From a virus: DNA of 48,997 nucleotides. This document shows, piece by piece, positions 2 to 47,286 of this stretch. Every line of letters begins with the position of its first letter. The first letter of the stretch is position 1. The stretch covers positions 1 through 48,997 of IMG/VR virus record IMGVR_UViG_3300021964_000114. The stretch is one strand, 5' to 3'. Below the pieces are notes generated by a model. That model did no database searches, was not told where the DNA came from, and worked only from the letters and a program-made list of their open reading frames with translations. A program made the position numbers and the translations under genes.

Positions 2-3000
2 AGAGATATAATACAACCATATCCACATGTTAATAGAGAAACTGGTGAGACAAATGCAAAGGCAAGAGAGCGATATGAGTTTATAATTTCTAATTTAACA
101 GAAGAAGAAAAGGATCAATTAGTAATAACATATATAGAAAATCCTGAAGCAGGAAAAACTAATGAACAATATCCTTATTTAGAAATTCCTGGTCAACCAG
201 AAAATCCTTTAATAGGAAGAATTAGAGGTAAAGCTGATATAGGGTTAAAATTTGGTAATGCTGAGACACTTAATAAAATCAATGGTAAACTTATTGATAA
301 TAACTTAGAACTATCAGATTCACCAGAAGGAATATTTGCCTATTTTAAAAATGATAATTATGAGTTTGAAGGTGTACCAGATCCTATAAACTTTACTATT
401 GATCAAGCTAAAAATGTAATTGACTTTAGCAAAATACAAGAAGGTAAGAATATTTCTGATGAACAAAAACTAGATATTATTATTAAATCTTTTGCAAAGA
501 ATAAATTACTTAGTACATCAGTAGCAGAATTAGCATCTCAGTATGATGGTAATATTCCTTTATCTGCATTATCAAAAAGTTTTACTTTAGATCAGTCAAT
601 TAACAATTTAATTCTTAATGCTGCTAAACCACAAAAAGCAGATAATTTAAAATATAATTCTTCAGATGAATCTGGTAATAAAGTTATAATTCAGATCCAA
701 GGAGAAGAAAAAAAGAAGTCTAAGATTGAACGTACAAATCTTCAAGATGCTGCAGCAATTCAACTTATAGATAGGGTTAACAAAGGTTTAAAAGAAGCTG
801 GTGAAATAGATGAAAATAATAATTTTACTAACCCTAATATTACTGAGAAGTATGCATTAGCTGTATTATTACCTGATGGGACATATAAACTTGTTCCATT
901 AAAACCTGAGAAACTGAGTGATGTTGAATTAAATCAACTATTTAATGATGTAGTTGATAGATCTGAAAAAACTAGAAATGAAAATTTAAATATTGAAATT
1001 ACTGATAAGACAACAGTAAAACAATTACAAAGTGCTAAACAAGAAGATGATGCTTTTAACAGTGATTTTAATTCAAAAGAAGTTCCAAGTAGATTATTTA
1101 TTAGTTCAAAAGCTGGAGGATATAGGTATGAATTACAGGTTACTTCTTGGGGTAATATAAACATACAACAAAGTAAAAAGGTTGGTCAAAAATATTCTAA
1201 AGTAAAAACAGTACAGTTAAAACCTGAAGAAGAGGTTGGATTAAAAACTCCTGAATCTAAAATAAAGGCTCTTATAGAAAAGTTTAATAAAGAAGTTGTA
1301 GAAGATCAAAAAATATCACTTGACAACTTTAGAAAATCTTTTCCAAGAGATGCTGGTGTTCAAGAGATTCTTGATAAAACAACAACTAATGTTCAGTATG
1401 ATGTTATTGCTAGACCAAGATTATTCATAAACGCTGATTCTGCAGAACAACAGGCTATTATAGATGCTTCAAAATCTACTAATAGTGAAAGTGTAAAAGC
1501 TCCAGTTGAATCTGCTCAAGCAGCTGTTGATAAACCTGAACCACAACAAGTAGAAAGAGTTGTTGAAGCTGCACCTGAGGTAGAAAGATTACGGGATTGG
1601 CAAATTCCTGTATCTGCACAAAAGTTTACCTTTAAAACATTTGAGGGTGAGGAACAATCGGGTCTTTTCATAACTAATATGGATGGTAGTAGAGATCTTC
1701 AAATGAAACTTGACGATGGTGAAATTTACAACCGAGTAAGAATTGCTAAAGACGTCACTCTTAGCAACGAAGAATATATTGGAAAATTATCAGACGTAGA
1801 CCAAGATGGTTTTACTGTTACAGATGTAGATATTAAAACAATAAGAAATCCTAAGACGGAGGAGCGTATGTCTAACAGACAACGTGAGGCTGCAGGATTA
1901 CCTGTCAGAGAAAAAGTTGAAGCCGAAGTTACTGAAGAATTTACACCTGATCAAAGATTAGAAAACTTAAAAGAACAACTTAATGTACTTAAAGCTGAAG
2001 TTACTAAAGATTTAACCGGTCCTGCTATAGCTAAAGCTATGAGGACAGATGAACGGGTAATTAAGTTAAAAGAAAAAATAAGAAAAGCAGAAGATGAATT
2101 AAATGCTGCAAATAAAATATTACCTGCAAATACAACTGAACAAGCTAATGCTGATATTGAAGAATTTAAATCTTGGGCTGCTCTAAATTTACCTGATTTT
2201 ATTACTATTGATGATATAAATACATTAGGTAATAACATGAAAGCTGGTGGTGTTCGTGTTGGTGCTTTTGCATTAGGTTTATATAATTTAGGTGGTGGTC
2301 TAACTATCAACGGTACTATATATACAGGAGCTACAAATCCATTTAAATATCATGAAGGATTTCATGCTGTATATAGATTACTTTTAACAGATGAACAACA
2401 AGCACAATATTTATCTATTGCTAGAAAAGAAGTTAGAGCTAAGTTAAGAAAAGAAGGTAAGAGCTATAGAAAAGAACTAGAAAGATTTAAAAACTCTGCA
2501 GATACATATTCTGATATGAGCGATTCAAGATTAGAAAAAGAATATCTTGAAGAATACATGGCTGATGAGTTTGAATTATTTAAACAAAATCCAAGATCTA
2601 CTAAAACAGATTCTAGTATTAAATCATTATTTAATAGAATATTAGAATGGATAAAAGCATTATTTAATTCATATACTAAGAATGAACTATTAACTCTTTT
2701 TGAAAATATAGATGCTGGTAAGTTTAGAACAGCTTCTGTAAAAAATAATAACTTTACTACAAATCTAATTGAAGGTGTATCTGTTGAAGCTAATGCATTA
2801 ATTCCACATGATTTTGTTAGTGAAACAAATAAAGATGGAGACCGTAATATAGGATATTTATATTTAGATAGTGCTATTGCAGAGCCAATGATTAGATCAA
2901 TAGCAGCTACATTTTTAACAGATGTTTCATCACAAACACAAGCAAAAAAATTAAGAGAACTTGAATCAAAGTTTAAAGAAGTTGAAGAAGTTGAAGACAT

Positions 3001-6000
3001 TACTCCAGAGGAAATTTTAAATAATGTTCTTGATGAGTTTGAGTGGCTTTATAGTTTAGATAATGAGATTAATGATGATAAATCTGATATTCAAAAAGAA
3101 CAACTTGAAAATGTTAGTAAATCATTTGAACTATACAGATCTGAGATTAAAAAAGATGTAAACTCATTACTTAGTATAATAACTAAACAAAGCGCAGATC
3201 AAGAATTTGATAATGAATTTTTTGAAAGTGAAGCCGGATTAAGAACTGTTGAGCAGTTTAATAAAGATGCATCAATGATTGGTGGATTTGCTAGTCTTGC
3301 TGAAGGTATAAGAGCTTATATAGCAACTACTACATTAGAGGATGTAGATTACTTTGGTAACAAAGAACTAAGCGAAGGTAGACCATTGATTGTTCCTGTT
3401 GAATTTATGGATGCTTATAACGGAATGTTAAAAGCTGTAAAGAACTTAAGTGATCCAAAAGAGATATTAAGGAACATGTATTACTTTGGTCAGGATAATC
3501 CAAATACAGGAGCTGTTGTAAATAGAATGCTATTAGATACTATTGGTGATAATGGCATTGAAGTTATAGAGTCTGATAATCCATTACCAGAAAAAATTAA
3601 AAATCCATTATTGCTTCAAAGTATATTAAAAGGTTTTGAAAACTTTAGAGTAAACTATTTATTCATGCAACGTGATGATACAGGTGGTTCTTTAATATAT
3701 TCAGCAGCAAATAGAGATGATGTTAACTCACAACTTTCAAGATGGTCACAAGCATGGGTGCAAGCATCTAAGAAAATTAAATCTGATAAAACTTTTAAAA
3801 ATGCAGCAATAAAAACAGCTAATAATTTTAGAGTTTATCTTGAAGGTACAGAAAAAATTGGAGATTTAGAATTAGATAAAGTATCTAAAGAGATATCACA
3901 AGATTTGTTTAACTATACTGGTATAAGATTAAGCAAAAAATATATTGCTTTTAGTATAGCGTATAATAGAGAATCAAGAACTCCAAAACAAGAAACTGAT
4001 TATAATGCTAATCAATATGTTTTACCTATAGACTCAGCAGATGTAGAACAGTTACAAAGATCTATAGAAAGTAATAGCGATATATTTGATCCTGGAATAG
4101 AAGGTATGTCTTCACGTTTAAATAAGATGAGTGAAAACAATGCTGAATTTGATGAAACAGTTGGTGCACCAGTATTTAAAAATCCAAATGGAGACTTAGT
4201 ATATGCTCATCAGCTTCCAACATTCCACTTAAAACAAGTTGAGGCGTTAAATAATACTGAAGAACTAAACGATCTTAGAGATGGATACTTAGAAAATAAT
4301 TATTTATTAAATGATCCGGCTTTTATAAAACTTTCAGATAAGAGTAAATTAAGAGTAACTAGAATTGCAGGTAGTTTAGTAGGAAAATTAAATGAGACCG
4401 AAGAGGAAATAAATGCAAGACTAACAGGTGTATCAGACAGAAGTGCATATGGAGACTTTACTCCTAGAGAACTTGTATTATCACTTTTAAATTTTTACAC
4501 TTCTAATTATAATACAAAGAGTGGTAAAGTTGAAACAGTTGAATATGAGGATAATTTAACAGATCAAACTATGACTGCAGCACTAGCTCCGGTTCTAATA
4601 AGAGTGATGGAGGCTTCAAATACTGGAGACTTATTATCACTTCCTGTTATAAAAACTGTAGAGTTAGTAAAAGGAAAAACTAAATTAACTGAAAAAGCAC
4701 TTAATATTTATTTAGAACAAATAGATAATGAGTTTAAAAGAATACAACGTGAGTCAAATTCTGAAACTAAATCTGAAGAAAGATTAGGTTATAATGATAC
4801 TGATACTGGAAGAGCATTTAAATTTCATAATACAGGACTATTATTAGATCAAGAGATCAAAGAAGGCCTAGAAGAAAAAGCAAAAACTAATTTTGATATA
4901 TCACTTAAAGAAGCATTATCATCATTAAATAAAACTGAAGGTCAATTTAAAAAAGATCTAGAGAAGAAATTAAATGATGAGTTTGAAAAGTTTGATCAGT
5001 TATTAGTAGAGTTAGGTGCAAAAGATTTAACAAGCAATGCAATTAATAAAGGTTTATCTTCTGCTCCAGAATTAAATTTAATTAATGATAAAGAATATAA
5101 TCTTAAACAAATATTCTTTAATGATTGGATTAATACTACAGCAATAAATGAAGTATTACTTGGAGATCAAGCTGTATCATTAAAAGATGCAGTTGATAGA
5201 ACTAAAAGAGGTAAAGGTCAAAATGGTGCTTTCTATAGTTCAGAAAGTAATTTTACAGCACCTGAGTATGGTATAAATCATCCTAATAAAGAGATTAGTT
5301 ATGTTGCTTTAGAAGAACCAATTGGAGTATCATCAATTGGTGGTAAGAGTATTGATAGAGCTGATGGTCAACTTTACATGACAACTAAAGCATTTAGATA
5401 TACAAGATTCGGTATTGGTAAACTTACAGCTGCACAAGCAGAATTATTAGATAGAGTTGAAAGAGGAGAGTATATTCCTTCTTACTCAATATTTGAACCT
5501 GGAGGTTATGTTTCAAATAAAGAAATGCTAAACAGTAAGAAGATGGTTTACTATGATGGTGAAACATACTTAAAGATGTCAGCATTTGTATTAACCCCTG
5601 AGTTAACTTCTAACCCTGATGGTACAGCTAAACCTTCCAGAGAAGCATTACACAATTTAAGAATCAAACTTGAAGCTATTGAAAAAGAAACAGACACAAT
5701 AGCCATGGCTTCTCCTCTAAGTGCTTCTAAAATGATGAAGCAAAAAGTAAATTCATTAACTACGCTTGATAATACAGAAGAGTTTGAAAATGGTTATTCT
5801 ACATTAGAAACAAAATACTTTGGATTACAAGTATTAAACCCATCTAATAAATTAGAAACAACAGATCCTACTCAAATTAAAGCTCTTGTTACTTCTGAAC
5901 AAGATGACTCTGTAGAAGTTGAAGGTCTTAATATGACTGTAGGTAAAATAAGAGAAGAATATAATAAGGCTACCAATAGAAGACTTGTTTTAAAATATAA

Positions 6001-9000
6001 AAATAACAGAAATCTTATTTTTACTTTTGATAAGGCAATGAAAGAAGTTGCTGAGTTTAAAATTACAGGTAAGATAACACCTAACTTATCTATATTTTTA
6101 GATTATGCTACTGAGTCACTTAAAGCTAGTAAGTCTAGTAGTAATCTTTTAGAGTTCTTTTCTAAACAAAACGGTGAACAAAAGTATAATTTAAATAACC
6201 CTATTACTGTAAATAAGTTTGAAGAATTATTTTTAAGCTTTTTTAGTAAAGGTGTATTATCAGAAAAAATTCCTGGAGAGACTTTATCTTTAGTTTCTGA
6301 TTTTGGCATGAGAATATACAGAAGAGTATATGAAGTAGATGCTGATGGTAATCCAGTTAGATCAGAAGTAATTAGAGAAAAGCAATGGGAAAAACTTGAA
6401 GATAAACCAGAAATATTTACTTTAAGTAATCTAACTAACGATGAAATACCTGCAGAAGGTATAGTAGTATTAGATAGATTAAGAACAGGTTTGATGGAAT
6501 ACACTAATCCTAAAGATCCTGAAACAGCTACAGGTCAACGATATAGTGAAAGTCTTGTTCCAGCACACCATGCATCTGTTAGAAATCTTATTGAAAATAC
6601 AGCTGCTGATATTCCTGAAGTTATATCAAAAATGTTTGCTGTACGTATACCTTCTCAAGATAATCACTCTACAATGAATGTAAAGCTTGTAGATTTCTTA
6701 CCTACTGTAAATGGTTCTAGTGCAATGTTCCCGCAAGAGTTGGTTGAGATAGCTGGATCCGACTTTGATATTGACAAGGTATTTACTCAGATAAAAGAAT
6801 TCTATGTAGAGGATAATAAATTTTATGAGTATGGAGCAACAGAAGGAAGAGAGTATAAAGACTACATAAAGTATGTAAATGAAAAAGTAAATGAGAATAC
6901 TCCATATGCTAAAGGATATAGACTATATGAGACCCAAGGTTTAAATATAGAAGATTCATACACAGATGCTGAAATGTTAGCTTTAAATGATTTAGGATTT
7001 ACTGATAAGTCTATAAAAGCTTTAACAGCATTAGGTCTTCCTGTAAGTAAAAAACAATATGAAGATTATACATCTAATTATGGAGAACCATATGAAGCAC
7101 CATACAATAATAAAATACTAGATTATAAGTATGCATTGATGGGTAATAAAGGTGTAACAGAAGCAAAAGAAGGAACACCTATATCATATACTCCTGCAGG
7201 TTTAGAAATATTAACAGATAAAGAAACTAAAACTGGAATACTAGAACTATTAGAAGAACTATTACCAGGATTGAAAGAAAAAAATAGAGAGGATAATGTA
7301 GATGTGGATAATATGCTTGGTAAGACTAAAGCATGGATGGCAAATAAAGGTGCTGCAATTGGAGCAATTGTATTACCTAACACATATCTAAGTTTATTAA
7401 CTGAGTATAAATTAGAACTAAAAGGACCAGCTCCTTTTTTAAATGGTAGAGCTTATACTGATTTTGGAGTATTAAACGAAATACTTGGTGATGGTACTAA
7501 AGGTGATAGAAAGCAAGATATAATATCTTCTTTAATTACTGCAATGACAGACAATGCTAAAGAAAGGCTAGCTGCAAAGTTAGGTTTAAATAGACATTCT
7601 CTTGGTATTGTTGCAAATGCTACAGCATTGGGTATACCACTTAAAACTAGTTTGTTACTTGTTAACAATCCATTGATAACATCTATATATGATCAAGCTT
7701 TTAATAAAAAAGAAAAGACAGATCCAGGTGTTAAAAATATTCTTAAACAACAAATTGATAATCTAACTGAAGTAAGGAAAATAAAACCTGCATTAATAAG
7801 TGATGATACATTAATAAACTACTATAATGAAGAGTTTCCTGTAGAAAAAACTGAAGAAGTTATAACCGAGGAAGCACCGGTAGAGGAAGTTGTTAAAGAA
7901 GATAAACCTAATGGAAGAGCTGATGATATAAAATTAGGTATTCTTTTAGAGTTCCAAAAACTACTTGACATTAAAGACTTTACATCTAAAATGTCTTCTG
8001 TTACTACATTATCTAATGGTCTAGGTAAAAATATGGCAGATATAAATAAAAGAGTAAACGATATATCTGATCTTTTTGCAAAAGAAGCACCTATAGATTT
8101 AAATAAAGTTTTCAGAGGTTCTACTTGGCAGTCTGGTTATCTAAAAATATTTGAACAATTTTATAATGATATAGCACCTGCTGCTTTTCTATCAGGTACA
8201 GAAAACTTTAGATCTATATTAAATGATTTATATAAGAGTATAAACACAAACACACTAGATTTCACTGAAGAAGTTGAATCTAAGATATCTAGAGATTTAT
8301 TATCTTATTTGACAATTAAGGCTTATCAGAAAAATAAATTAGATACCAATTCACAATCTGTAGCAACATTGAATAATTCTTATATATATCCTACTGTAGA
8401 AGGTGGACAATATAAAACTATCACTGATACTATAAATACATTAAGAGAACAGGAGGATTTAAAAGATAATTTCTTTGTTCAGAATTTTACAATAAGCAAT
8501 CCTGCTGATGATCAATCTAATACAACAGGTTTAGAATTACTTGAAGCAAATACTTTTAGAAATTTAAATCAAGCTCAAATGATTGATTTACAAACATCAT
8601 TTGCTAGATTATATGGCTCTGTTAAATATAAACAAGATGCTATAGATATAGTAAATTATATGATGGTTAAAGATGGATTACAAATAGGCTATGCATCTTT
8701 AATACAAGCTATCTCACCATTTATGATGGAACAATATTTAAATCATGTTGATACAGCATCTAATGCATTGAGAAGTAATAACAATGAACTTATTACATCT
8801 ACATTTGGATTAAACTTTGAAGATCTCAAATCTGAATTTATAGAAGGCTATTTACTATCTAATAGAAGTAATACTTTATTGAACAATTATAATTTTACTA
8901 CTACACTAACAGGTGATCTTATAAAACCTGAAAATGTAAATATAGTAGATAATACATTAAATGCTAAATCTGAAGATGTAAATCCTCTTTTTGTTCGTGT

Positions 9001-9676
9001 TACTGATACATTTGAAGGTAGAGATTTTACAAAAGTAACTTATAAAACATATAGACTTACAGGTGCAGATAAAGATACTGCTACATATACTGAAGTAGAA
9101 ACTGCAGGTTCTAATCAGCAGAATCCTATAGGATTTATGTTTGGTGATAGACCTACATATAATCAAGTAAGAGAGTATGTAAAAAGTAGAGAGAAGCAAG
9201 AAGATACGGTTGAGGAAGAACAGCAATTAGATAGAAAAGATCAAGTAAAGCAACGAGCTGCACAAGCATCAGGAGCTGATGTTGAAGCTAGTAGCGATGG
9301 TATTATTAAAATCAATGATAAAAATATTGCTGATATTACACCAACTGAAAAAAATCTTAAAGTTGAAAAAGTAGAAGAATATATGGATATTGATCCAGAT
9401 CTTATTGATGAACTTGATAATATTAATGAAGATGCTCAACAACTAACACCTGATCTATTTAATGAACTTCAAAAATTCAATGAAGAAATAAATGATAATT
9501 ATACAATCATTGAAAACTTTTGGGATAGTAATATACAATTTAACAAAGAGGTTAAAAATTCTCTAAGAGAAAATAATAATATATTATCTTTGGAAGACTT
9601 GATTAAAAAATATGAAGACGGTATTTATAAAGATCAAGAGGAGTTTGTAGAACAGATTAAAAAATGTAACTTATAA
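2..9676 (+). CDS. Giant virion RNA polymerase polyprotein (5' partial)
   Basis: The frame is open from the left edge without a stop: 3,224 codons are visible and the true start lies outside the window. The first in-frame ATG is only at 1679, which is not a credible start because the 559 codons before it read as ordinary protein in the same frame. The sequence GSDFDIDKVF (nt 6755-6784, catalytic DFDID at 6761-6775) matches the DxDxD metal-binding loop of crAss-like phage virion RNA polymerases, which are related to eukaryotic RNAi polymerases. An upstream stretch near nt 5120-5240 (NDWINTTAINE, then KGQNGA) fits the first double-psi barrel. A zincin motif HEGFH lies at nt 2351-2365, with an acidic EEYMADE at about 2549. 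An acidic, low-complexity linker lies near 7840-7910. The family is packaged in the virion and transcribes early genes after injection. The polymerase call is confident; the domain borders are not. Confidence 0.9.
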   Translation, partial: RDIIQPYPHVNRETGETNAKARERYEFIISNLTEEEKDQLVITYIENPEAGKTNEQYPYLEIPGQPENPLIGRIRGKADIGLKFGNAETLNKINGKLIDNNLELSDSPEGIFAYFKNDNYEFEGVPDPINFTIDQAKNVIDFSKIQEGKNISDEQKLDIIIKSFAKNKLLSTSVAELASQYDGNIPLSALSKSFTLDQSINNLILNAAKPQKADNLKYNSSDESGNKVIIQIQGEEKKKSKIERTNLQDAAAIQLIDRVNKGLKEAGEIDENNNFTNPNITEKYALAVLLPDGTYKLVPLKPEKLSDVELNQLFNDVVDRSEKTRNENLNIEITDKTTVKQLQSAKQEDDAFNSDFNSKEVPSRLFISSKAGGYRYELQVTSWGNINIQQSKKVGQKYSKVKTVQLKPEEEVGLKTPESKIKALIEKFNKEVVEDQKISLDNFRKSFPRDAGVQEILDKTTTNVQYDVIARPRLFINADSAEQQAIIDASKSTNSESVKAPVESAQAAVDKPEPQQVERVVEAAPEVERLRDWQIPVSAQKFTFKTFEGEEQSGLFITNMDGSRDLQMKLDDGEIYNRVRIAKDVTLSNEEYIGKLSDVDQDGFTVTDVDIKTIRNPKTEERMSNRQREAAGLPVREKVEAEVTEEFTPDQRLENLKEQLNVLKAEVTKDLTGPAIAKAMRTDERVIKLKEKIRKAEDELNAANKILPANTTEQANADIEEFKSWAALNLPDFITIDDINTLGNNMKAGGVRVGAFALGLYNLGGGLTINGTIYTGATNPFKYHEGFHAVYRLLLTDEQQAQYLSIARKEVRAKLRKEGKSYRKELERFKNSADTYSDMSDSRLEKEYLEEYMADEFELFKQNPRSTKTDSSIKSLFNRILEWIKALFNSYTKNELLTLFENIDAGKFRTASVKNNNFTTNLIEGVSVEANALIPHDFVSETNKDGDRNIGYLYLDSAIAEPMIRSIAATFLTDVSSQTQAKKLRELESKFKEVEEVEDITPEEILNNVLDEFEWLYSLDNEINDDKSDIQKEQLENVSKSFELYRSEIKKDVNSLLSIITKQSADQEFDNEFFESEAGLRTVEQFNKDASMIGGFASLAEGIRAYIATTTLEDVDYFGNKELSEGRPLIVPVEFMDAYNGMLKAVKNLSDPKEILRNMYYFGQDNPNTGAVVNRMLLDTIGDNGIEVIESDNPLPEKIKNPLLLQSILKGFENFRVNYLFMQRDDTGGSLIYSAANRDDVNSQLSRWSQAWVQASKKIKSDKTFKNAAIKTANNFRVYLEGTEKIGDLELDKVSKEISQDLFNYTGIRLSKKYIAFSIAYNRESRTPKQETDYNANQYVLPIDSADVEQLQRSIESNSDIFDPGIEGMSSRLNKMSENNAEFDETVGAPVFKNPNGDLVYAHQLPTFHLKQVEALNNTEELNDLRDGYLENNYLLNDPAFIKLSDKSKLRVTRIAGSLVGKLNETEEEINARLTGVSDRSAYGDFTPRELVLSLLNFYTSNYNTKSGKVETVEYEDNLTDQTMTAALAPVLIRVMEASNTGDLLSLPVIKTVELVKGKTKLTEKALNIYLEQIDNEFKRIQRESNSETKSEERLGYNDTDTGRAFKFHNTGLLLDQEIKEGLEEKAKTNFDISLKEALSSLNKTEGQFKKDLEKKLNDEFEKFDQLLVELGAKDLTSNAINKGLSSAPELNLINDKEYNLKQIFFNDWINTTAINEVLLGDQAVSLKDAVDRTKRGKGQNGAFYSSESNFTAPEYGINHPNKEISYVALEEPIGVSSIGGKSIDRADGQLYMTTKAFRYTRFGIGKLTAAQAELLDRVERGEYIPSYSIFEPGGYVSNKEMLNSKKMVYYDGETYLKMSAFVLTPELTSNPDGTAKPSREALHNLRIKLEAIEKETDTIAMASPLSASKMMKQKVNSLTTLDNTEEFENGYSTLETKYFGLQVLNPSNKLETTDPTQIKALVTSEQDDSVEVEGLNMTVGKIREEYNKATNRRLVLKYKNNRNLIFTFDKAMKEVAEFKITGKITPNLSIFLDYATESLKASKSSSNLLEFFSKQNGEQKYNLNNPITVNKFEELFLSFFSKGVLSEKIPGETLSLVSDFGMRIYRRVYEVDADGNPVRSEVIREKQWEKLEDKPEIFTLSNLTNDEIPAEGIVVLDRLRTGLMEYTNPKDPETATGQRYSESLVPAHHASVRNLIENTAADIPEVISKMFAVRIPSQDNHSTMNVKLVDFLPTVNGSSAMFPQELVEIAGSDFDIDKVFTQIKEFYVEDNKFYEYGATEGREYKDYIKYVNEKVNENTPYAKGYRLYETQGLNIEDSYTDAEMLALNDLGFTDKSIKALTALGLPVSKKQYEDYTSNYGEPYEAPYNNKILDYKYALMGNKGVTEAKEGTPISYTPAGLEILTDKETKTGILELLEELLPGLKEKNREDNVDVDNMLGKTKAWMANKGAAIGAIVLPNTYLSLLTEYKLELKGPAPFLNGRAYTDFGVLNEILGDGTKGDRKQDIISSLITAMTDNAKERLAAKLGLNRHSLGIVANATALGIPLKTSLLLVNNPLITSIYDQAFNKKEKTDPGVKNILKQQIDNLTEVRKIKPALISDDTLINYYNEEFPVEKTEEVITEEAPVEEVVKEDKPNGRADDIKLGILLEFQKLLDIKDFTSKMSSVTTLSNGLGKNMADINKRVNDISDLFAKEAPIDLNKVFRGSTWQSGYLKIFEQFYNDIAPAAFLSGTENFRSILNDLYKSINTNTLDFTEEVESKISRDLLSYLTIKAYQKNKLDTNSQSVATLNNSYIYPTVEGGQYKTITDTINTLREQEDLKDNFFVQNFTISNPADDQSNTTGLELLEANTFRNLNQAQMIDLQTSFARLYGSVKYKQDAIDIVNYMMVKDGLQIGYASLIQAISPFMMEQYLNHVDTASNALRSNNNELITSTFGLNFEDLKSEFIEGYLLSNRSNTLLNNYNFTTTLTGDLIKPENVNIVDNTLNAKSEDVNPLFVRVTDTFEGRDFTKVTYKTYRLTGADKDTATYTEVETAGSNQQNPIGFMFGDRPTYNQVREYVKSREKQEDTVEEEQQLDRKDQVKQRAAQASGADVEASSDGIIKINDKNIADITPTEKNLKVEKVEEYMDIDPDLIDELDNINEDAQQLTPDLFNELQKFNEEINDNYTIIENFWDSNIQFNKEVKNSLRENNNILSLEDLIKKYEDGIYKDQEEFVEQIKKCNL

Positions 9677-9682
9677 TAAACT

Positions 9683-12600
9683 ATGGCTAAGTGTCCAAAT
9701 AGAAATACAGCAGAGTATAAATCTCTACAGGAAGCATATAAATCAGAAATACAAACTGATAATATAATCAATAAGTGGCAAGATTTAAATAACACGGATG
9801 TGTTTCCATCTGTTGCACAAGCAAAAGAGTTTGTTAAAAATAACAAGGCTGCGTTTTCATTAAAGCAAAAAGCGTTCTCTGAAAACTTATTAGCAAATCT
9901 TGTAGAAAAAAGAATACTACATAGTTACCAGGGTTTTTATTTAGTTAATAATTCTAATCCTGCTACATTTAAATACGATGAACAATTCTTACAAGCTAAT
10001 TTAAAAAGACTTACAAGGTATTTAGAAATTAATAATATCCCTTTAAACTCTGTAACAATTACAAGAACACCTAAAAGTTATAAGGTACAGATTATAAATA
10101 ATGTATTTACACCTAAAGATTTATTAGAAAAGTCTAGATCTTGGGATACACCACGTGCTAAAGCTGTTGTATCACATTTAAGAAGATTGTTTCCACAGGT
10201 TGGTGTAAAGCTTATGAGTGTGGCTGAAGCAGAAGCTATTTGGAATGATGATAATAAAGTTCCTAAGTGGGCAAAAACAGATGTAAGTTTTGATCAGGTT
10301 AATTCATTTTACTATGAAGGTCTAGCTGTATTAATAAAAGGTAGAGTAACAGATGAAACTGCAATAGAAGAAATACTACACCCATTTGTTGATGCAATTA
10401 AAGCAGATAATCCTGAGTTGTTTGAAGGTTTATTAAAAGAAGCTAAGAAAAACTTTCCTGAAATGAATCAAGCAATAAACGCTGCATATTCTGACAGTAA
10501 AGGATTTACACCTCTAGATAGAAATTTAGAGATGGTTACTCAAGCTCTTTCTAGACACTTTAATAATGAGTATGAAAAAACTCCAACAAGAAGTTTCTTA
10601 ACTAAAATTAAAGAAGTATTAGATTGGTTCTTAGATGTCATAGGTAATCTTAGTGAGTACTTAACAGGTAAACCTTTTACAGTAAAATCTATAACCGCTA
10701 CATCTTCTTTAACAGATATAGCAAAATTATTAAATACATCTGATATAGAATTTAAATTAGATAGAAGAGTAGATAATAGAGTTAGATATTCATTGTCTCC
10801 TGAAAAAGATAAAGTTGTAAGAAAAGTTTTAAAAGAGTCTAATGATATTCAAAAAGAATTTATAAAACGTTTATTCCATACTGCTAGATCATCAGAAGAT
10901 GTTATTGGGGACCTATCAGCAAGTAATAAAAACTCTGATTATAATGGAGATATAGTTGCTTATAATAAAAAAGATAATTCATACATGAATATATCAACAG
11001 GTGAGGTTTATTCTTCTACATCTGATTATATTGGTCTTAGTAATAATGAGAATGATGCTCTTAATCTAAAAGTAAATGATGATATAAAAACTTTATTTGA
11101 TGCTGTTGTTGGTAATGAAAGTTTTGAAGATGCTTCTTCAAGGTTAACAACTCTAAGTGAAGAAGCGGCAAAAGAAGTGGTTGATTCTTTACAAGAACAA
11201 CTTATAGGAAATAATAATCCTATTATTCCTGATGGCGCTGTTGCATTATCCAATGTTGTTGTGTTTGATCCAAATACTAAAACTGCAGGAACTGTAGATC
11301 TATTAGTTATTGATAAGACAGGTGTTGTTAATATTGTTGATTTAAAGGTAAGTAAAGACTCTATATATGGTGAACAAGGAAGAAAAGTATATTCTGAAGA
11401 ATTATATCCATTAAAAAGTAATAGTGCTTTAAAAGAGAAACACGGTATATTAGAACTGACTAACTCTGCTCAAAATAGTATTGAAGTAAACATGTTAAAA
11501 AGAATGCTTGATAACATGGGGTACAACACTAATAGAACTTTAACAGGAGCTCAGACATTTCATGTTAAAGCTGATGGTGATAAGATTGAGGTGGACGGTA
11601 GAGTGGAGTTTATAAACGACACTAAGAATATGACATATGTGGATATGTTAATACCACAAAATGTTGATCAATATTCTAAAGACCAATTAGATGATATAAT
11701 TGATAATTCTGATGATGGAATATTTGATGGTTCTAAGTATGAAGAAGATCAAGAAAAACTAGCTGAAGAAATAGATCCTTTAGTATATCCTGAGTATAAT
11801 TCTATAATGGGTATACTAGAAGATTATAGAATTGCTCTAGTAGATCAACAAAAGGCTCTAAAAGTAATTGAACGATCAGTATTTAGAGACATGTCCAAAG
11901 AGGAACTACGTGACGAAATTGCTAGTACACTAGCATACATTTCTGCAAATATTGATAATGGACCAGCATCTAGATCTGCTACATACACCTATCTTCTTCA
12001 AGGTGCTTTACGTCAAATGAAAAAATTTGCTGATTATGTTCAAGATCCTGCAAATTTTGGTAAAGATGAATACATAACCTATACTTTAAATTTCAATAGA
12101 TTTTTAAGCACATTTGAACCTTTATTTTTAATACAAGATTCTCAAGATCATAATGCTACACAAAGAGCATTAATACGTCAGATGGATATATTAAGAAATA
12201 AGATAAAAGGAACAGGTGTAAGAAAGAAAGAAAATGAAACTGAAGAAGAAAGAATATTTAGAGAAGGATTGGTAAATGATGCTATAATTAATTTTGTAAA
12301 AGAAAAAATTAGAGAAAGATCTAATAATGACTGGGGTGGTAAGCAAAGTGTATTTACAGAACAAGATTTAGATGATCTTGTAAGAAGATCACCTGATATA
12401 TCTCAACTTGCTTTATTAACTCAAGATATGGCTACTCAATCTGATGCAATGCTTTCTGTTATGGATAAAATATATAAAACCCAAAAACAAAAGGTACTTG
12501 ATTTAATTGATCAGCGTAATAAACTTGTAATTAATAGTGCTAATAAGTTAATTAAATTATATCCAAATCTAAAAAGAAATGAGCTTTATGATTTCATGTC

Positions 12601-15376
12601 TATATTTGATAAAGATGGTAACTTTACAGGAAGATATATAAAACCTATAGGCGAGTTATATACTAAAATACATGATGATCTAAGATTTCAACTATATGAT
12701 GATACAGGTTTACCTTATAAGTATAGAGATATTACAGATTTATCAACAGCATCTCTAGAAGATATTCAGTATAATATTGATTTAGCTAATAAGAAAAAAG
12801 CTTTTGCAGATTTTTTTAGAGCAGAAGAAATGAATGAAGATGGTAATCTTGTAGATGGTGAGTATCATTATTATACAGATGAGTTTAAGAAAGCTAGAGA
12901 TATATATGAGTTTTGGCAGGTAAGTGCTAATGGTAAATATGGAGAGTGGAAAAAAAGAAATAGCGTTTCAGCTAAGGATTATGCTGTATATAGAGCAAAG
13001 TATTTTGAATCTTCTACATATGATCAACCACAAAGAGTTAAAGGTAATCCAACAGGTGTAGTTGTAAAAAATGTTAAGAGTGAATTTCCTAAAGTTGAAT
13101 ATAGAAAGGTTAGAGAAATAACAAAATCTGGTAAAGATATGCGTGATAAAAAGTACGCAGAACTTATGGATCCTACTAAAACTGATGCGGGTACATTAGC
13201 TAGAAGAGAGTTCTATAACTTATTTATTAAAATGTATGAGGAAGATTTACTAGAAAAGATTCCTGAATATCAAAGAGATCAAATGATGGGTAGAGTCCCC
13301 ACTATTAAAGATAACTTATTAAGTGATCTAAAGGATAAACCAAACATAATATCTAAGATGTGGAGTGATATTACAACATCTGTAAAAAACTTAACTCAAG
13401 AAACATCAACTATGAAAAAAGTCATGCTTGATGAATCAGGTAACTTTACAAATCAACTACCAGTATTCTATACAGGAAGACCAAGAATGGATGGTGAATT
13501 AGAAGAAGTAGAAAAGAAGATGGCTTTTGTTGAAGAACAAAGAGTAAAAGGTCTTATAACACCTGATAAGTATAATGCACAAATTAAAGAGCTTAGAGGA
13601 GAATATAATAGAATATATAATAAACCATCAACAGGTGAACTAAGTAGAGATTTAGGATCTAGTTTAATAAAGTTTAATGCTATGGCTACACACTATGAAG
13701 TTATGGGTGAAGTAGAAGATACATTAAATGCTTTTGTTAAAGTATTAGAAAGAAGAGAATATGACTTACCTGTTGCTACAGGTCAAAGTTTTGTTTCAAG
13801 AACTAAAGAAGGCGTTCTTAAAGCTGTAGGTTTTACACGAGATCAAGGTTTAGAAGCTAATGCTGTAAGAAGAGCTAAAAAATTCATGTCAATGGTTTTT
13901 TATGATAATGAACTAGCAAATAAAGGCATGTTTGATAAAATTGCAAAAGAAATAACTGGTGCAACATCATTAACATGGGTAGCATTTAACCCTATGGGTA
14001 ACTTTAATAACTATGCTCTAGGTAGAATAAATAATAATATTGAAATGCTAGGTCAAAGATTTTTTAGTAAAAAAGCATATTTAAGAGCAACTAAAGAATT
14101 TAATACAAATGCTATTCCTGGAATGTTTGAAAGAATAGGAAGTGGTGCAACTGATTTAGTAGATATTGCTACACTAGGTAAACTAGGTTTAAAGAAATCT
14201 GATTATGATGCGGATAAAGCAAATAATAAATATGAAGCTGTAACTCAATATTTTAGAATGATGGATCCTGATACAGATATACGTGAGAATAGTTCTAAGT
14301 ATGATGATTCATCTTTATGGTCAAGATTTAAGGAATGGGGTTATGTAATGCAGGATGCTGCTGAATATAATGTACAATCTAAAGTAGGTGTTGCAATGTT
14401 AATGGATACTATTATAAAGAACAGTAAAACAGGAGAAACATTATCCCTATATGATGCATTACATTTTGATGGTAAAACTAATACCGTTTCTTTATTAGAA
14501 GATTATGATATTGTTGTAGATAAAAAAGGAAATAAGATTGCTGATTATAATGACAATTTTAGATATGATTTAAGAAATCAAATAAGGGAAGTTAATAAAC
14601 AAATTCATGGTAATTATGCTAAAGAAGACAGAATGGTTCTTCAGAGTTATGCTCTTGGTAACTTAATAACACAATTTAAAAAGTGGGTTGCACCAGCATT
14701 AAGAGCTAGATATCAAACAGAATATTTTGATCAAAATTTAGGATGGATGGAAGGAAGATACCTATCATGGTGGAAGTTTACCAACTATGCAACTAAAGAA
14801 TTTATTAAAGGCACTAGAGATATTAAAGCTTTAAAAGCAGGTTTTCTTGAACAATATGGATATACCGGTGAAGGTGGTAATCTAGATAAAAGAGCATTAA
14901 ATAAATTACAAGGATTTTATAGAACTGTAGGTGAAATTGCAATTCTATCATCAGTTTTTGTATTAAACTCTCTTATGGATGGATTGTTATCAGGTGATGA
15001 TGACTCAGATACAATGAAGAGATTAAAAAATCTTGCAAGATTGCAAGCAGATAGAACTAAAGATGAAATGTTAACATTTGTACCAGTACCTGCAGGTATT
15101 GAACAAAATTATCAAATGTTCTCTAATCCTATAGCATCATTAAAATTATTAAGAAATACATCAAAAGCTTTACAATTAAGTCTTACAACACCAATTGCTT
15201 TTATTACTCAAGATAGAGATGCTTTTTATGATAATTCAGATTATGTTTATCAAAACAAACCATACAAAGGTATGTTAAAAGTAAATAAACAATGGCAAAG
15301 ATCATTACCAGCTATAAGAACATATAGTAAATATATAGATGCTATTAAGAAACAAGATTTTGAGATAGGGTTCTAG
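9683..15376 (+). CDS. Giant crAss-like virion protein with PD-(D/E)XK nuclease motif
   Basis: This 1,897-residue protein starts 6 nt after the polymerase polyprotein. Its N-terminus begins MAKCPNRNTAEYKSL. Residues about 205-360 resemble the zincin region of the upstream protein but the active site is lost: EEILHPF at residues 229-235 stands where HEGFH is expected. Residues about 515-560 have the strand-turn-strand pattern of a PD-(D/E)XK nuclease: D539 in GTVDLLV, then D553-L-K555. The rest is long, mostly helical and charged. A hydrophobic stretch (residues about 1750-1772, VGEIAILSSVFVLNSLMDGL) could enter or cross a membrane. Position and size suggest a virion-packaged companion of the RNA polymerase, perhaps ejected with DNA. 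That role is inference; the nuclease motif is visible. Confidence 0.75.
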   Translation: MAKCPNRNTAEYKSLQEAYKSEIQTDNIINKWQDLNNTDVFPSVAQAKEFVKNNKAAFSLKQKAFSENLLANLVEKRILHSYQGFYLVNNSNPATFKYDEQFLQANLKRLTRYLEINNIPLNSVTITRTPKSYKVQIINNVFTPKDLLEKSRSWDTPRAKAVVSHLRRLFPQVGVKLMSVAEAEAIWNDDNKVPKWAKTDVSFDQVNSFYYEGLAVLIKGRVTDETAIEEILHPFVDAIKADNPELFEGLLKEAKKNFPEMNQAINAAYSDSKGFTPLDRNLEMVTQALSRHFNNEYEKTPTRSFLTKIKEVLDWFLDVIGNLSEYLTGKPFTVKSITATSSLTDIAKLLNTSDIEFKLDRRVDNRVRYSLSPEKDKVVRKVLKESNDIQKEFIKRLFHTARSSEDVIGDLSASNKNSDYNGDIVAYNKKDNSYMNISTGEVYSSTSDYIGLSNNENDALNLKVNDDIKTLFDAVVGNESFEDASSRLTTLSEEAAKEVVDSLQEQLIGNNNPIIPDGAVALSNVVVFDPNTKTAGTVDLLVIDKTGVVNIVDLKVSKDSIYGEQGRKVYSEELYPLKSNSALKEKHGILELTNSAQNSIEVNMLKRMLDNMGYNTNRTLTGAQTFHVKADGDKIEVDGRVEFINDTKNMTYVDMLIPQNVDQYSKDQLDDIIDNSDDGIFDGSKYEEDQEKLAEEIDPLVYPEYNSIMGILEDYRIALVDQQKALKVIERSVFRDMSKEELRDEIASTLAYISANIDNGPASRSATYTYLLQGALRQMKKFADYVQDPANFGKDEYITYTLNFNRFLSTFEPLFLIQDSQDHNATQRALIRQMDILRNKIKGTGVRKKENETEEERIFREGLVNDAIINFVKEKIRERSNNDWGGKQSVFTEQDLDDLVRRSPDISQLALLTQDMATQSDAMLSVMDKIYKTQKQKVLDLIDQRNKLVINSANKLIKLYPNLKRNELYDFMSIFDKDGNFTGRYIKPIGELYTKIHDDLRFQLYDDTGLPYKYRDITDLSTASLEDIQYNIDLANKKKAFADFFRAEEMNEDGNLVDGEYHYYTDEFKKARDIYEFWQVSANGKYGEWKKRNSVSAKDYAVYRAKYFESSTYDQPQRVKGNPTGVVVKNVKSEFPKVEYRKVREITKSGKDMRDKKYAELMDPTKTDAGTLARREFYNLFIKMYEEDLLEKIPEYQRDQMMGRVPTIKDNLLSDLKDKPNIISKMWSDITTSVKNLTQETSTMKKVMLDESGNFTNQLPVFYTGRPRMDGELEEVEKKMAFVEEQRVKGLITPDKYNAQIKELRGEYNRIYNKPSTGELSRDLGSSLIKFNAMATHYEVMGEVEDTLNAFVKVLERREYDLPVATGQSFVSRTKEGVLKAVGFTRDQGLEANAVRRAKKFMSMVFYDNELANKGMFDKIAKEITGATSLTWVAFNPMGNFNNYALGRINNNIEMLGQRFFSKKAYLRATKEFNTNAIPGMFERIGSGATDLVDIATLGKLGLKKSDYDADKANNKYEAVTQYFRMMDPDTDIRENSSKYDDSSLWSRFKEWGYVMQDAAEYNVQSKVGVAMLMDTIIKNSKTGETLSLYDALHFDGKTNTVSLLEDYDIVVDKKGNKIADYNDNFRYDLRNQIREVNKQIHGNYAKEDRMVLQSYALGNLITQFKKWVAPALRARYQTEYFDQNLGWMEGRYLSWWKFTNYATKEFIKGTRDIKALKAGFLEQYGYTGEGGNLDKRALNKLQGFYRTVGEIAILSSVFVLNSLMDGLLSGDDDSDTMKRLKNLARLQADRTKDEMLTFVPVPAGIEQNYQMFSNPIASLKLLRNTSKALQLSLTTPIAFITQDRDAFYDNSDYVYQNKPYKGMLKVNKQWQRSLPAIRTYSKYIDAIKKQDFEIGF

Positions 15377-45273: not shown

Positions 45274-45522
45274 TTATTTAATTTGTATTTTTCTTCCAAT
45301 GCGTTTTATGCAGCCTTTAATTTTTAGTTCTTTTATCAGTCTATCTACTGTTCTAACGCTTATGTTTAATTCATCTGCTAATCTTGCAATGGAAGGATAA
45401 CAAATTCTTTCTTTATTAGCATAACATGCTAGGGTAGAGTATAAAGCTTTTGCTTGAGGAGTTATTTCAGGTGAAGTAATAATATCATATGATACTATAC
45501 CAAACCTTTTTTTACTCTGCAT
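45274..45522 (-). CDS. Winged helix-turn-helix DNA-binding protein
   Basis: 82 residues from ATG 45522 (MQSKKRFGIVSYDIITSPEI). The frame extends to a GTG at 45579, which is not preferred because it overlaps the upstream gene. LTSPEITPQAKALYS-type helix, then YPSIARLADELNISVRTVDRL and LIKELKIKGCIKRIGRK are the helix-turn-helix and wing seen in HTH_36-type replication or repressor proteins. It probably binds phage DNA as a regulator or initiator accessory. It overlaps the upstream gene by 11 nt. Confidence 0.8.
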   Translation of the reverse strand: MQSKKRFGIVSYDIITSPEITPQAKALYSTLACYANKERICYPSIARLADELNISVRTVDRLIKELKIKGCIKRIGRKIQIK

Positions 45523-45973
45523 TACTTTTTTTTGTTTCTTTCTCTTTGTATTTTTTAAATATTGTAAAGAATGGTTCACTCTTATCTACCATAAGAATGT
45601 TTTCTTTCTTTACATTGAGCTCTATAGTTGTAACTTTATGATCACTGTCATGTGTATACATCTGTGCTTTATATGAATTGTCATATCCAAGATTTGTGTC
45701 TGTTATAATACCATACACATAACCATTATTGATTAATCCATATCTGTCTAACACATCTACTTCATAATCCATATTCCATTTCTTTACTTTGGTTTTTATA
45801 ACTTGACCATACTTTACATCTTCTATTTTATTCTGTGATAATATTATTTCCATAAGATCATCTTGATTTACATCTTCCAATAAAGAAAGTAGACGCTCAT
45901 AGTTTTCTTTGTTTTCTATTCTGATATACTTTTTAATTATATCTAAGGTTGTTTGTTTTGATATTATTGGCAT
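45512..45973 (-). CDS. Hypothetical protein
   Basis: 153 residues from ATG 45973 (MPIISKQTTLDIIKKYI), which follows an A-rich tract. An earlier ATG at 46006 would place codons within a leader hairpin. N-terminal helical region, then beta-strands (YGQVIKTKVKKWNMDY) and a Lys-rich tail. Unrecognised. A long structured leader precedes it. Confidence 0.6.
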   Translation of the reverse strand: MPIISKQTTLDIIKKYIRIENKENYERLLSLLEDVNQDDLMEIILSQNKIEDVKYGQVIKTKVKKWNMDYEVDVLDRYGLINNGYVYGIITDTNLGYDNSYKAQMYTHDSDHKVTTIELNVKKENILMVDKSEPFFTIFKKYKEKETKKSNAE

Positions 45974-45997
45974 ATTATTTTTTTTTAATTTGTTATA

Positions 45998-46025
45998 CCA
46001 GTGCATCTAATTAAAGACACACTGG
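45998..46025. repeat. Leader hairpin
   Basis: Six-base arms CCAGTG / CACTGG (45998-46003 and 46020-46025) with a 16-nt loop, 25 nt upstream of the ATG at 45973. It may affect translation of the 153-residue gene or form part of the larger structured leader next to it. Confidence 0.4.
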
Positions 46026-46045
46026 AAATAACATCATTTAACTAT

Positions 46046-46145
46046 AAAACCACCATGTACTAATGTACCCACTCAGTATTTACACTCATAGATATATACT
46101 ATAGAATAATACTGGTACTGTTAGTACGTCATACATGGCGGTTTT
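46046..46145 (-). ncRNA. Long imperfect inverted repeat, candidate structured RNA
   Basis: Arms 46046-46080 and 46108-46145 pair over about 28 positions with short bulges, around a 27-nt loop. The one mismatch in the outer 12-bp stem (A vs C on the plus strand) is a G-U wobble on the minus strand, so the leftward transcript folds better. It occupies most of the 191-nt gap between the four-helix membrane gene and the 153-residue gene. The plus strand ends it in eight T. Candidate structured leader, stable RNA or double terminator. Confidence 0.5.
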
Positions 46146-46164: not shown

Positions 46165-46473
46165 TTACTTGCTTTTACTCCAAGTTATCTCCATATGGAT
46201 GAACAGAAGTATAAGAGTAAATTCTCTTGAGTCTTTATCATATCCTAATAGAAATCCTATACCTGGTATAAGACTAAAAGATACATATGGTAACAGTCTC
46301 CAATTGTTAAATAGTGCTGCATAGTTTACTGCATTTACAATTAGTAGTAGCAGAACACCTATGTTAGTAGATATCATTGCTATGTCAGCGTTTTCTCTTA
46401 TCATCCATACTGTTGTAAGTAAAGATGCTAATGGTAGTATTACCACATAAATTAATTTTAATATAAATTTCAT
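46165..46473 (-). CDS. Small multi-pass membrane protein
   Basis: 102 residues with about four hydrophobic segments (roughly 4-23, 31-53, 59-76 and 83-97), short loops and a basic tail TWSKSK. No family recognised. Membrane placement is evident, and the gene stands next to the ParB-like gene. Confidence 0.65.
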   Translation of the reverse strand: MKFILKLIYVVILPLASLLTTVWMIRENADIAMISTNIGVLLLLIVNAVNYAALFNNWRLLPYVSFSLIPGIGFLLGYDKDSREFTLILLFIHMEITWSKSK

Positions 46474-46485
46474 TTGATTATAGGT

Positions 46486-47205
46486 TTAAAGGTTAAAAAT
46501 TTTCTTTCTAATAAACTCAGATGCATAATGTTGATCAGACATAGCTTTGATTGTAGGTAGATGTTTATCTAAACTAGCTAAAGCTTTTTTATGGTTATAC
46601 TTACCATAAACTGACATGAAGACTGATAGAAAGTTAAACTTTACCCATCTGTCTGCCTTGCCTATCTTAATAAAAATATCAGAGAATTGCTTACACATAA
46701 GCTCTGTATTAGAGTTAGTAATTTCAAATTCTCCTTCTTTAATAAGTTTGCTGATACGATTTGACTTAGAATTATTTGTTGCAATCATAGCAATCATTGT
46801 TGGTTCTAAGTTATACATGTTAATGTATCTTAAGAGTTTCATGTAATCATTATTAACAACTTTGTAAGCATTAACATAATCTATAAGACCCCAAGATTTA
46901 CTTGAGTTATTAAGTCCTGCCATAGTTTTCACTATATCTTCTACACTTGTAATATCAAGAGTTCTATATGATATAGGTAGATTCTCACGTACTAAAGCAG
47001 TATAAAGATGTTGACCATCTATGATGTAGTTTTTCTTTACGCCTTCAAAGACTTTAGTTGTAACTACAATTACATCACGAATACAACCTACGTTGTTAAG
47101 TGACTTAAGCATTTTTTCTACATGCTTTGCGTTTATTTCACGATTCATAGGAAGTAAACTAAACATGTTATAATTCTTAGTATTTTTTGATTTAATATGT
47201 TTCAT
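46486..47205 (-). CDS. ParB-like nuclease-domain protein
   Basis: 239 residues from ATG 47205 (MKHIKSKNTKNY). The frame extends to ATG 47262, but that reads through the terminator at 47227-47259, so it is rejected. LPMNREINAKHVEKMLKSL, then RDVIVV and YIIDGQHLYTAL form the ParB/sulfiredoxin-like fold, with DGQH in place of the ParB GHHR box. Such phage proteins act in partition, DNA binding or as nucleases. The remaining helical region could be a DNA-binding domain. Confidence 0.8.
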   Translation of the reverse strand: MKHIKSKNTKNYNMFSLLPMNREINAKHVEKMLKSLNNVGCIRDVIVVTTKVFEGVKKNYIIDGQHLYTALVRENLPISYRTLDITSVEDIVKTMAGLNNSSKSWGLIDYVNAYKVVNNDYMKLLRYINMYNLEPTMIAMIATNNSKSNRISKLIKEGEFEITNSNTELMCKQFSDIFIKIGKADRWVKFNFLSVFMSVYGKYNHKKALASLDKHLPTIKAMSDQHYASEFIRKKIFNL

Positions 47206-47226
47206 TTGATTTTTAGTTAAAAGGTT

Positions 47227-47259
47227 AAAAAAACCTGTTGCAGACTTAACTACAACAGG
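47227..47259 (-). terminator. Rho-independent terminator
   Basis: A perfect 7-bp stem (CCTGTTG / CAACAGG, arms 47234-47240 and 47253-47259) is followed by seven T on the minus strand (47227-47233). It ends the transcript of the 93-residue gene and separates it from the ParB-like gene, and it also rules out the longer start of that gene. Confidence 0.9.
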
Positions 47260-47286
47260 CATTAATTATGTTCTCAAGATAATCTT

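Follow-up and report, generated by a model that had tools for sequence, protein, structure and literature searches.

Among described systems, the nearest to the locus reported here are CRP/FNR-type regulators, in which a winged helix acts with a palindromic operator; phage and plasmid replication initiators of the HTH_36 or DnaD/O-like kind; N4 promoters, which are short palindromic hairpins ahead of early genes in a phage that has a giant virion RNA polymerase; and the structured RNAs catalogued in Rfam, with stable folds and covarying helices. As far as we are aware, the timing and start of replication in crAss-like phages are poorly understood, and the literature accessible to our search described no comparable conserved element in crAss-like phages.

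The locus lies in a 48,997-nt stretch of viral DNA (hereafter the window) and shares features with each of these systems. The predicted fold of a small HTH_36 protein encoded there resembles the DNA-binding domains of CRP/FNR regulators, and the nearby palindrome, P1, has their arrangement of two 5-bp half sites separated by 6 bp. Unlike those regulators, the protein is a single domain of 82 aa with no nucleotide-binding domain, and the likeness is limited (best PDB fold match at E 3e-3, with top matches about 15-27% identical). With the HTH_36 or DnaD/O-like initiators it has in common a matching N-terminal domain, a single-copy gene near replication genes, an adjacent palindrome and an AT-rich stretch, but there is no C-terminal loader domain and no iteron array, and P1 lies one gene upstream of the HTH_36 gene.

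The best reading of our comparisons is a protein–site pair that appears to co-evolve, located at the replication operon in one lineage of crAss-like phages. P1 would be the DNA site of the HTH_36 protein, placed before the replication operon, autoregulatory and possibly also an origin; taken as a whole, we consider this explanation likely.

The inverted repeat and its conserved core

The window and Cellulophaga phage phi14:2 both encode polymerase B, primase, RusA, UDG, SNF2 helicase and ribonucleotide reductase, and two giant rightward ORFs of the window (positions 2-15376) have matches among the virion RNA polymerase genes of phi14:2 (E 1e-6 and 2e-9); together these identify the window as crAss-like phage DNA. 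The first of the two ORFs carries GSDFDIDKV, possibly a catalytic motif.

The first-pass annotation had placed a 100-nt inverted repeat in a gene-free gap here, and it was right on both counts: the coordinates are exact, and the gap is bounded by two leftward ORFs, one with its end at 46165 and the other with its start at 45973. Across the window and two sister phages the element diverges by 0.5%, against 6.2-6.5% in the neighbouring genes. The sole substitution within the element in the sister phage L012/L015 turns an outer-stem C-G into C.A on the leftward strand, and reads as G.T on the rightward strand.

The search for relatives began with more distant phages that weakly matched the middle of the repeat and so revealed a conserved 16-mer; IMG/VR was scanned with this 16-mer, and further loci were fetched via a conserved neighbouring protein. 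Exact patterns of the arms recovered two sisters only and the box pattern recovered the family, chance matches to the latter in coding sequence being discarded. These searches of IMG/VR gave 76 distinct occurrences of the element (55 non-redundant); long relatives of the window there measure about 107-119 kb, and the core sits at the same genomic place in more than 50 diverged crAss-like phages. All of 11 records contain the perfect motif exactly once. The phages collection contained no related DNA and no match to the element's neighbour proteins, and no relative was found in the genome_contigs collection; the motif is absent from phi14:2, and crAss001 gave noise-level matches only.

Table 1. 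Features at the element and in the adjoining leftward operon.
Feature	Positions	Strand	Sequence	Remarks
Long inverted repeat	46046..46145	(-)		Lineage-specific long form of the element; from fold and low divergence
P1, imperfect 16-bp palindrome	46126..46141	(-)	CCGCCATGTATGACGT	Proposed HTH_36 site; covariation
Invariant box	46110..46124	(-)	CTAACAGTACCAGTA	One base after P1; family consensus CWAACARYACCAGTA
AT-rich stretch	46090..46109	(-)		After the box; averages 88% A+T over the family
3' arm of the long inverted repeat	46046..46069	(-)		Degenerate inverted second P1 copy
P4-like leader hairpin	45991..46033	(-)	TGTTATTTCCAGTGTGTCT-TTAATT-AGATGCACTGGTATAACA	Upstream of next ORF; RNA-level; from folds
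First gene 3' of the element, 153 aa	45512..45973	(-)		Homolog after the element in relatives examined
HTH_36 winged-helix gene	45274..45522	(-)		82 aa from ATG at 45522; Pfam HTH_36 3.7e-14
Recognition helix of the HTH_36 protein			SVRTVDRLIKELK	Candidate P1-binding segment

P1 consists of six-base arms around a four-base centre (Table 1). In 53 relatives it covaries at all six pairs, with 86% of cells paired and a covariation score of 0.81, where shuffling gave 0.22 and no slid register exceeded 0.17; in the window's own P1 only 4 of the 6 positions pair. The box is far more constant, with a mean top-base frequency of 0.91 against 0.36-0.56 in the surrounding segments. In many phages the AT-rich stretch leads into P2, the partner of the box, and then into a P4 hairpin near the next ORF; P2 covaries in part, and P4 also covaries. 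This outer architecture is much reduced or lost in some phages, as in L229, where P1 and the box stand alone with 42 nt from box to ATG.

In about ten phages a second P1 follows, some 37-48 nt past the start of the box. In three lineages it is a direct repeat (14-15 of 16 positions, against 11-13 when inverted), and in the remaining phages direct and inverted matches are equal. The 3' arm of the window's repeat, at a comparable position, matches P1 as an inverted copy at 10 of 16 positions, a match that is weak by itself in the window. It is probably because this second copy is degenerate and inverted that the long hairpin forms. By sequence comparison, only the window's lineage has the 100-nt stem, and the conserved unit is the 16-bp palindrome with the 15-nt box; the long stem may have an additional RNA role in that lineage.

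The gene order around the core is largely constant. The stop of the upstream ORF (77 to 282 aa) usually falls within about 10 nt of P1, and in L066-L245 differently sized upstream ORFs end almost at P1, as if it were a module boundary. After the first downstream gene come the HTH_36 gene, a 90-aa gene and a 171-aa gene, with the gene for a 182-aa protein varying in place. Where coordinates were compared, about 0.65-0.95 kb separate the element from the HTH_36 gene downstream; this gene is single in 19 of 20 relatives, and a 245-kb record has two copies. A ParB-like protein gene (PHROG 12305) is found just upstream of the element in the window, at 46486-47262, and its homolog in L067 is located elsewhere, about 3.2 kb downstream of the element.

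DNA-level and RNA-level readings

The repeat folds strongly on either strand. The leftward strand reaches -36.6 kcal/mol (z -4.67), with none of 200 shuffles as low, and the rightward strand -28.5 kcal/mol (z -4.41), a value that no shuffle equals. As leftward RNA the outer stem has 15 bp, including the single G-U pair from which an RNA function had been argued; the pair is indeed present, but with composition-corrected z-scores nearly equal on both strands it says little about strand, and the argument is weak.

We compared the fold of each strand with dinucleotide shuffles across the family. The P1-box-P2 segment had no strand preference, the sense strand being the more extreme in 26 of 55 non-redundant relatives (mean z -1.54 and -1.61 on the two strands). 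As a positive control, the P3-P4 hairpin before the next ORF was more extreme on the sense strand in 44 of 54 by the same test. An apparently better fold of the antisense strand in raw energies disappeared after the shuffle control and was rejected. Departures from pairing in P1 comprise 22 G.U and 18 A.C, and those in the P4-region hairpin 62 G.U versus 28 A.C; the A.C-to-G.U ratios of P1 and of the RNA hairpin did not differ significantly (Fisher p 0.16). These strand tests indicate RNA-like behaviour for the leader hairpin and give no sign of it for the core.

The first-pass annotation had read the element as a probable structured RNA, which would make it a cis-acting leader, attenuator or riboswitch-like RNA of the leftward operon. 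Several observations agree with it: the window folds strongly, P1, P2 and P4 recur with covariation, the invariant box lies between variable helices, and the ORF-proximal hairpin is a sense RNA followed in several phages by a T-rich tail. The annotation had also named no covariation, together with no stable RNA, as what would speak against it, and covariation was analysed and is present. What stands is thus a non-random, conserved and covarying structure, but RNA is not the best reading of its core, since strand preference is lacking, the departures are balanced, the P1 letters follow the recognition helix of a DNA-binding protein (see below) and additional P1 copies keep their letters. Rfam gave no match at the gathering threshold for the window and five relatives, and P2-P4 can be dispensed with, as in L229. 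We therefore regard a structured RNA as improbable for the core, and the comparisons suggest an inverted repeat built around a DNA site and not primarily an RNA. An element that acts at the DNA level can form a long, stable hairpin, complete with a G-U pair and genuine covariation, and it is a composition-corrected test on two strands, combined with a co-variation test against neighbouring DNA-binding proteins, that decides between DNA and RNA.

Two further readings place the element in transcription. A hairpin promoter like those of N4, read on the template strand by a virion RNA polymerase, would be consistent with a small hairpin of 6 bp and a 4-nt loop oriented before an early operon, with the giant ORFs related to the phi14:2 polymerase and with sense-strand A.C departures, which are G.T on the template strand. 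Unlike N4 promoters, the element has a single copy per genome and no template-strand bias (there is no excess of template-strand G.T), and its variable stem letters track the HTH_36 protein and not a conserved polymerase, so that we think this reading very unlikely. An ordinary intrinsic terminator on the rightward strand seems just as remote. There the hairpin is followed by TTTTTTTT, and A-runs precede P1 in 29 of 55 relatives compared with 21% after other stops, but no gene in the rightward orientation was found to terminate at it, and both the invariant box and the co-variation with HTH_36 would be left unexplained. A terminator for the leftward operon was also considered; TTTTAT alone follows the long stem, and the sole scan match at the element is on the rightward strand.

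The leader hairpin of the window is distinct from the reported inverted repeat. Together with the leaders of L110, L116, L129, L130 and L140 it represents a sense-strand RNA hairpin with very variable stems, whose loop in many relatives has a recurring TTTTT-CATA-(C)TTGTTT-AGG motif. The leaders of L022, L036, L042 and L055, which form one clade, contain a conserved GACGCAAGCT...AGGCAA within the hairpin before the next ORF, and in the clade with GAAC/GTTC palindromes (L074-L102, L245) a conserved CTGCTCCCT(A/T)CC lies between hairpin and start codon. In L228, a tRNA-like sequence, as read by eye, appears to lie in the same gap between leader hairpin and next ORF.

Co-variation of P1 with the HTH_36 protein

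If P1 is the site of a protein, its letters are expected to follow that protein. Among 50 phages, the window included, distances between P1 arms correlated with distances between HTH_36 proteins (r 0.486; 0 of 2000 permutations), and the partial correlation was 0.423 given three neighbouring proteins of the operon. Those three proteins gave partial correlations with the P1 arms of -0.07, -0.02 and 0.02. Linkage is not the cause, as a protein encoded between P1 and HTH_36 shows no co-variation. The four-base centre of P1 did not follow HTH_36 (-0.05), and a previous analysis of 49 phages, in which four other proteins served as controls, gave concordant results. The box, too, shows a correlation with HTH_36 (partial r 0.32); box and P1 may therefore share a binder rather than having separate ones. 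Permutations of this Mantel type model phylogeny incompletely, which the test on distant neighbours described below lessens only.

The signal is concentrated in the part of the protein that would contact DNA. In the AlphaFold model (pLDDT 87) the protein is a winged helix whose recognition helix falls in helix 56-68 (counted in the 82-aa form), with a beta wing after it, and the best Foldseek matches, none below E 0.001, are mostly DNA-binding domains of CRP/FNR-type regulators. The top HTH columns include R80, I82, K86, D79, T77 and R76, all in the recognition helix, compared with 0.046 for the median column; recognition-helix residue numbers here (76-80) count from GTG, as opposed to ATG for the 82-aa form. 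R80, the best-correlated residue, aligns by eye at what we take to be the place of Arg185 in CRP.

When each phage was matched to distant phages, the nearest by recognition helix had about 7 of 12 P1 arm bases alike, against 4.8-4.9 of 12 for the nearest by the rest of the HTH and 4.5-4.6 of 12 over all (helix versus all, p 6e-8 and 9e-9 at thresholds of 0.5 and 0.55). The window, L031, L068, L184 and L185 have the helix [VQ]RTVDR in common, and their P1 arms are alike at 10-12 of 12 positions; only four distant pairs have near-identical helices, and they involve these five phages. Other pairings of arms and helix are seen as well: seven phages combine GAAC/GTTC with QRY[VI]FKLLK, three combine TTCCGG/CCGGA with SVSQVSxYIK, and TAATAG goes with TPDTVSRYIR. 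As individual examples, the P1 arms read GTGAAC/GTTCAT in L074 and TTCCGG/CCGGAT in L236. These observations argue strongly for P1 as the putative DNA site of the phage's own winged-helix HTH_36 protein. By computation alone, and for one lineage, they point to a single conserved site of control, to the protein that is probably its cognate, and to those residues and bases that probably determine specificity, and the more than 30 recognition helices with their sites may help in reading winged-helix specificity.

Possible operator and origin functions

We propose that the HTH_36 protein binds the P1 palindrome, presumably as a dimer, with its recognition helix reading the six-base arms, and that the box and AT-rich stretch may serve as a second recognition or melting region. 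The position of the site ahead of the operon that encodes HTH_36 suggests autoregulation, and the protein probably controls this operon; the inverted, degenerate P1 copy would give the window its long hairpin. Direct binding, dimerisation, autoregulation and origin activity are all inferred from sequence here, strongly for binding and weakly for function: an operator role appears about evenly balanced and an origin role less probable, with overlap between the two being conceivable.

Additional P1 copies suggest a regulator. Tandem and distant copies preserve the letters of P1, beyond what pairing alone would preserve, and a few phages contain further intergenic sites matching their own P1 (6, compared with 0.43 expected from swapped P1s), three of these six belonging to one clade. 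One clade's P1-like matches 1.4 kb downstream were excluded from this count as they lie in a coding stretch. The window has no second P1 site within its 49 kb.

The single copy, invariant box, AT-rich stretch and initiator-like protein suggest a replication origin, in which HTH_36 would be the initiator and P1 its site, box and AT-rich stretch would act in loading and unwinding, and any effect on transcription would be secondary. We treat this as possible but doubtful. It is in keeping with one copy per genome at a fixed place near an initiator-like gene, with the resemblance of the downstream gene to the DNA-binding part of replication initiators (PHROG 270, 428 and 186), with an invariant box next to a stretch of 88% A+T, and with six long records in which cumulative GC skew reaches its minimum 0.2-4.1 kb upstream. 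The skew minimum, however, falls at a divergent gene switch and follows gene orientation; a GC-skew step at the element itself was gone at four-fold sites, where no strand-composition step was found, and was rejected. The extra P1-like sites at varied intergenic places fit a regulator better, and the HTH_36 protein has no helicase-loader domain. Slightly more doubtful still is the specific form in which P1 and the box would be the origin of a marine crAss-like lineage, served by a minimal winged-helix initiator whose specificity diversified with its site. If the origin reading were true, the lineage would offer a natural catalogue of recognition helices paired with DNA sites, and the box would be targeted by a partner.

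In L067, and also in L066, L069, L071, L084 and L087, a second P1-like palindrome with the same imperfect arms (L067:7504-7519) directly precedes a metallophosphoesterase gene, which suggests a small regulon in this clade.
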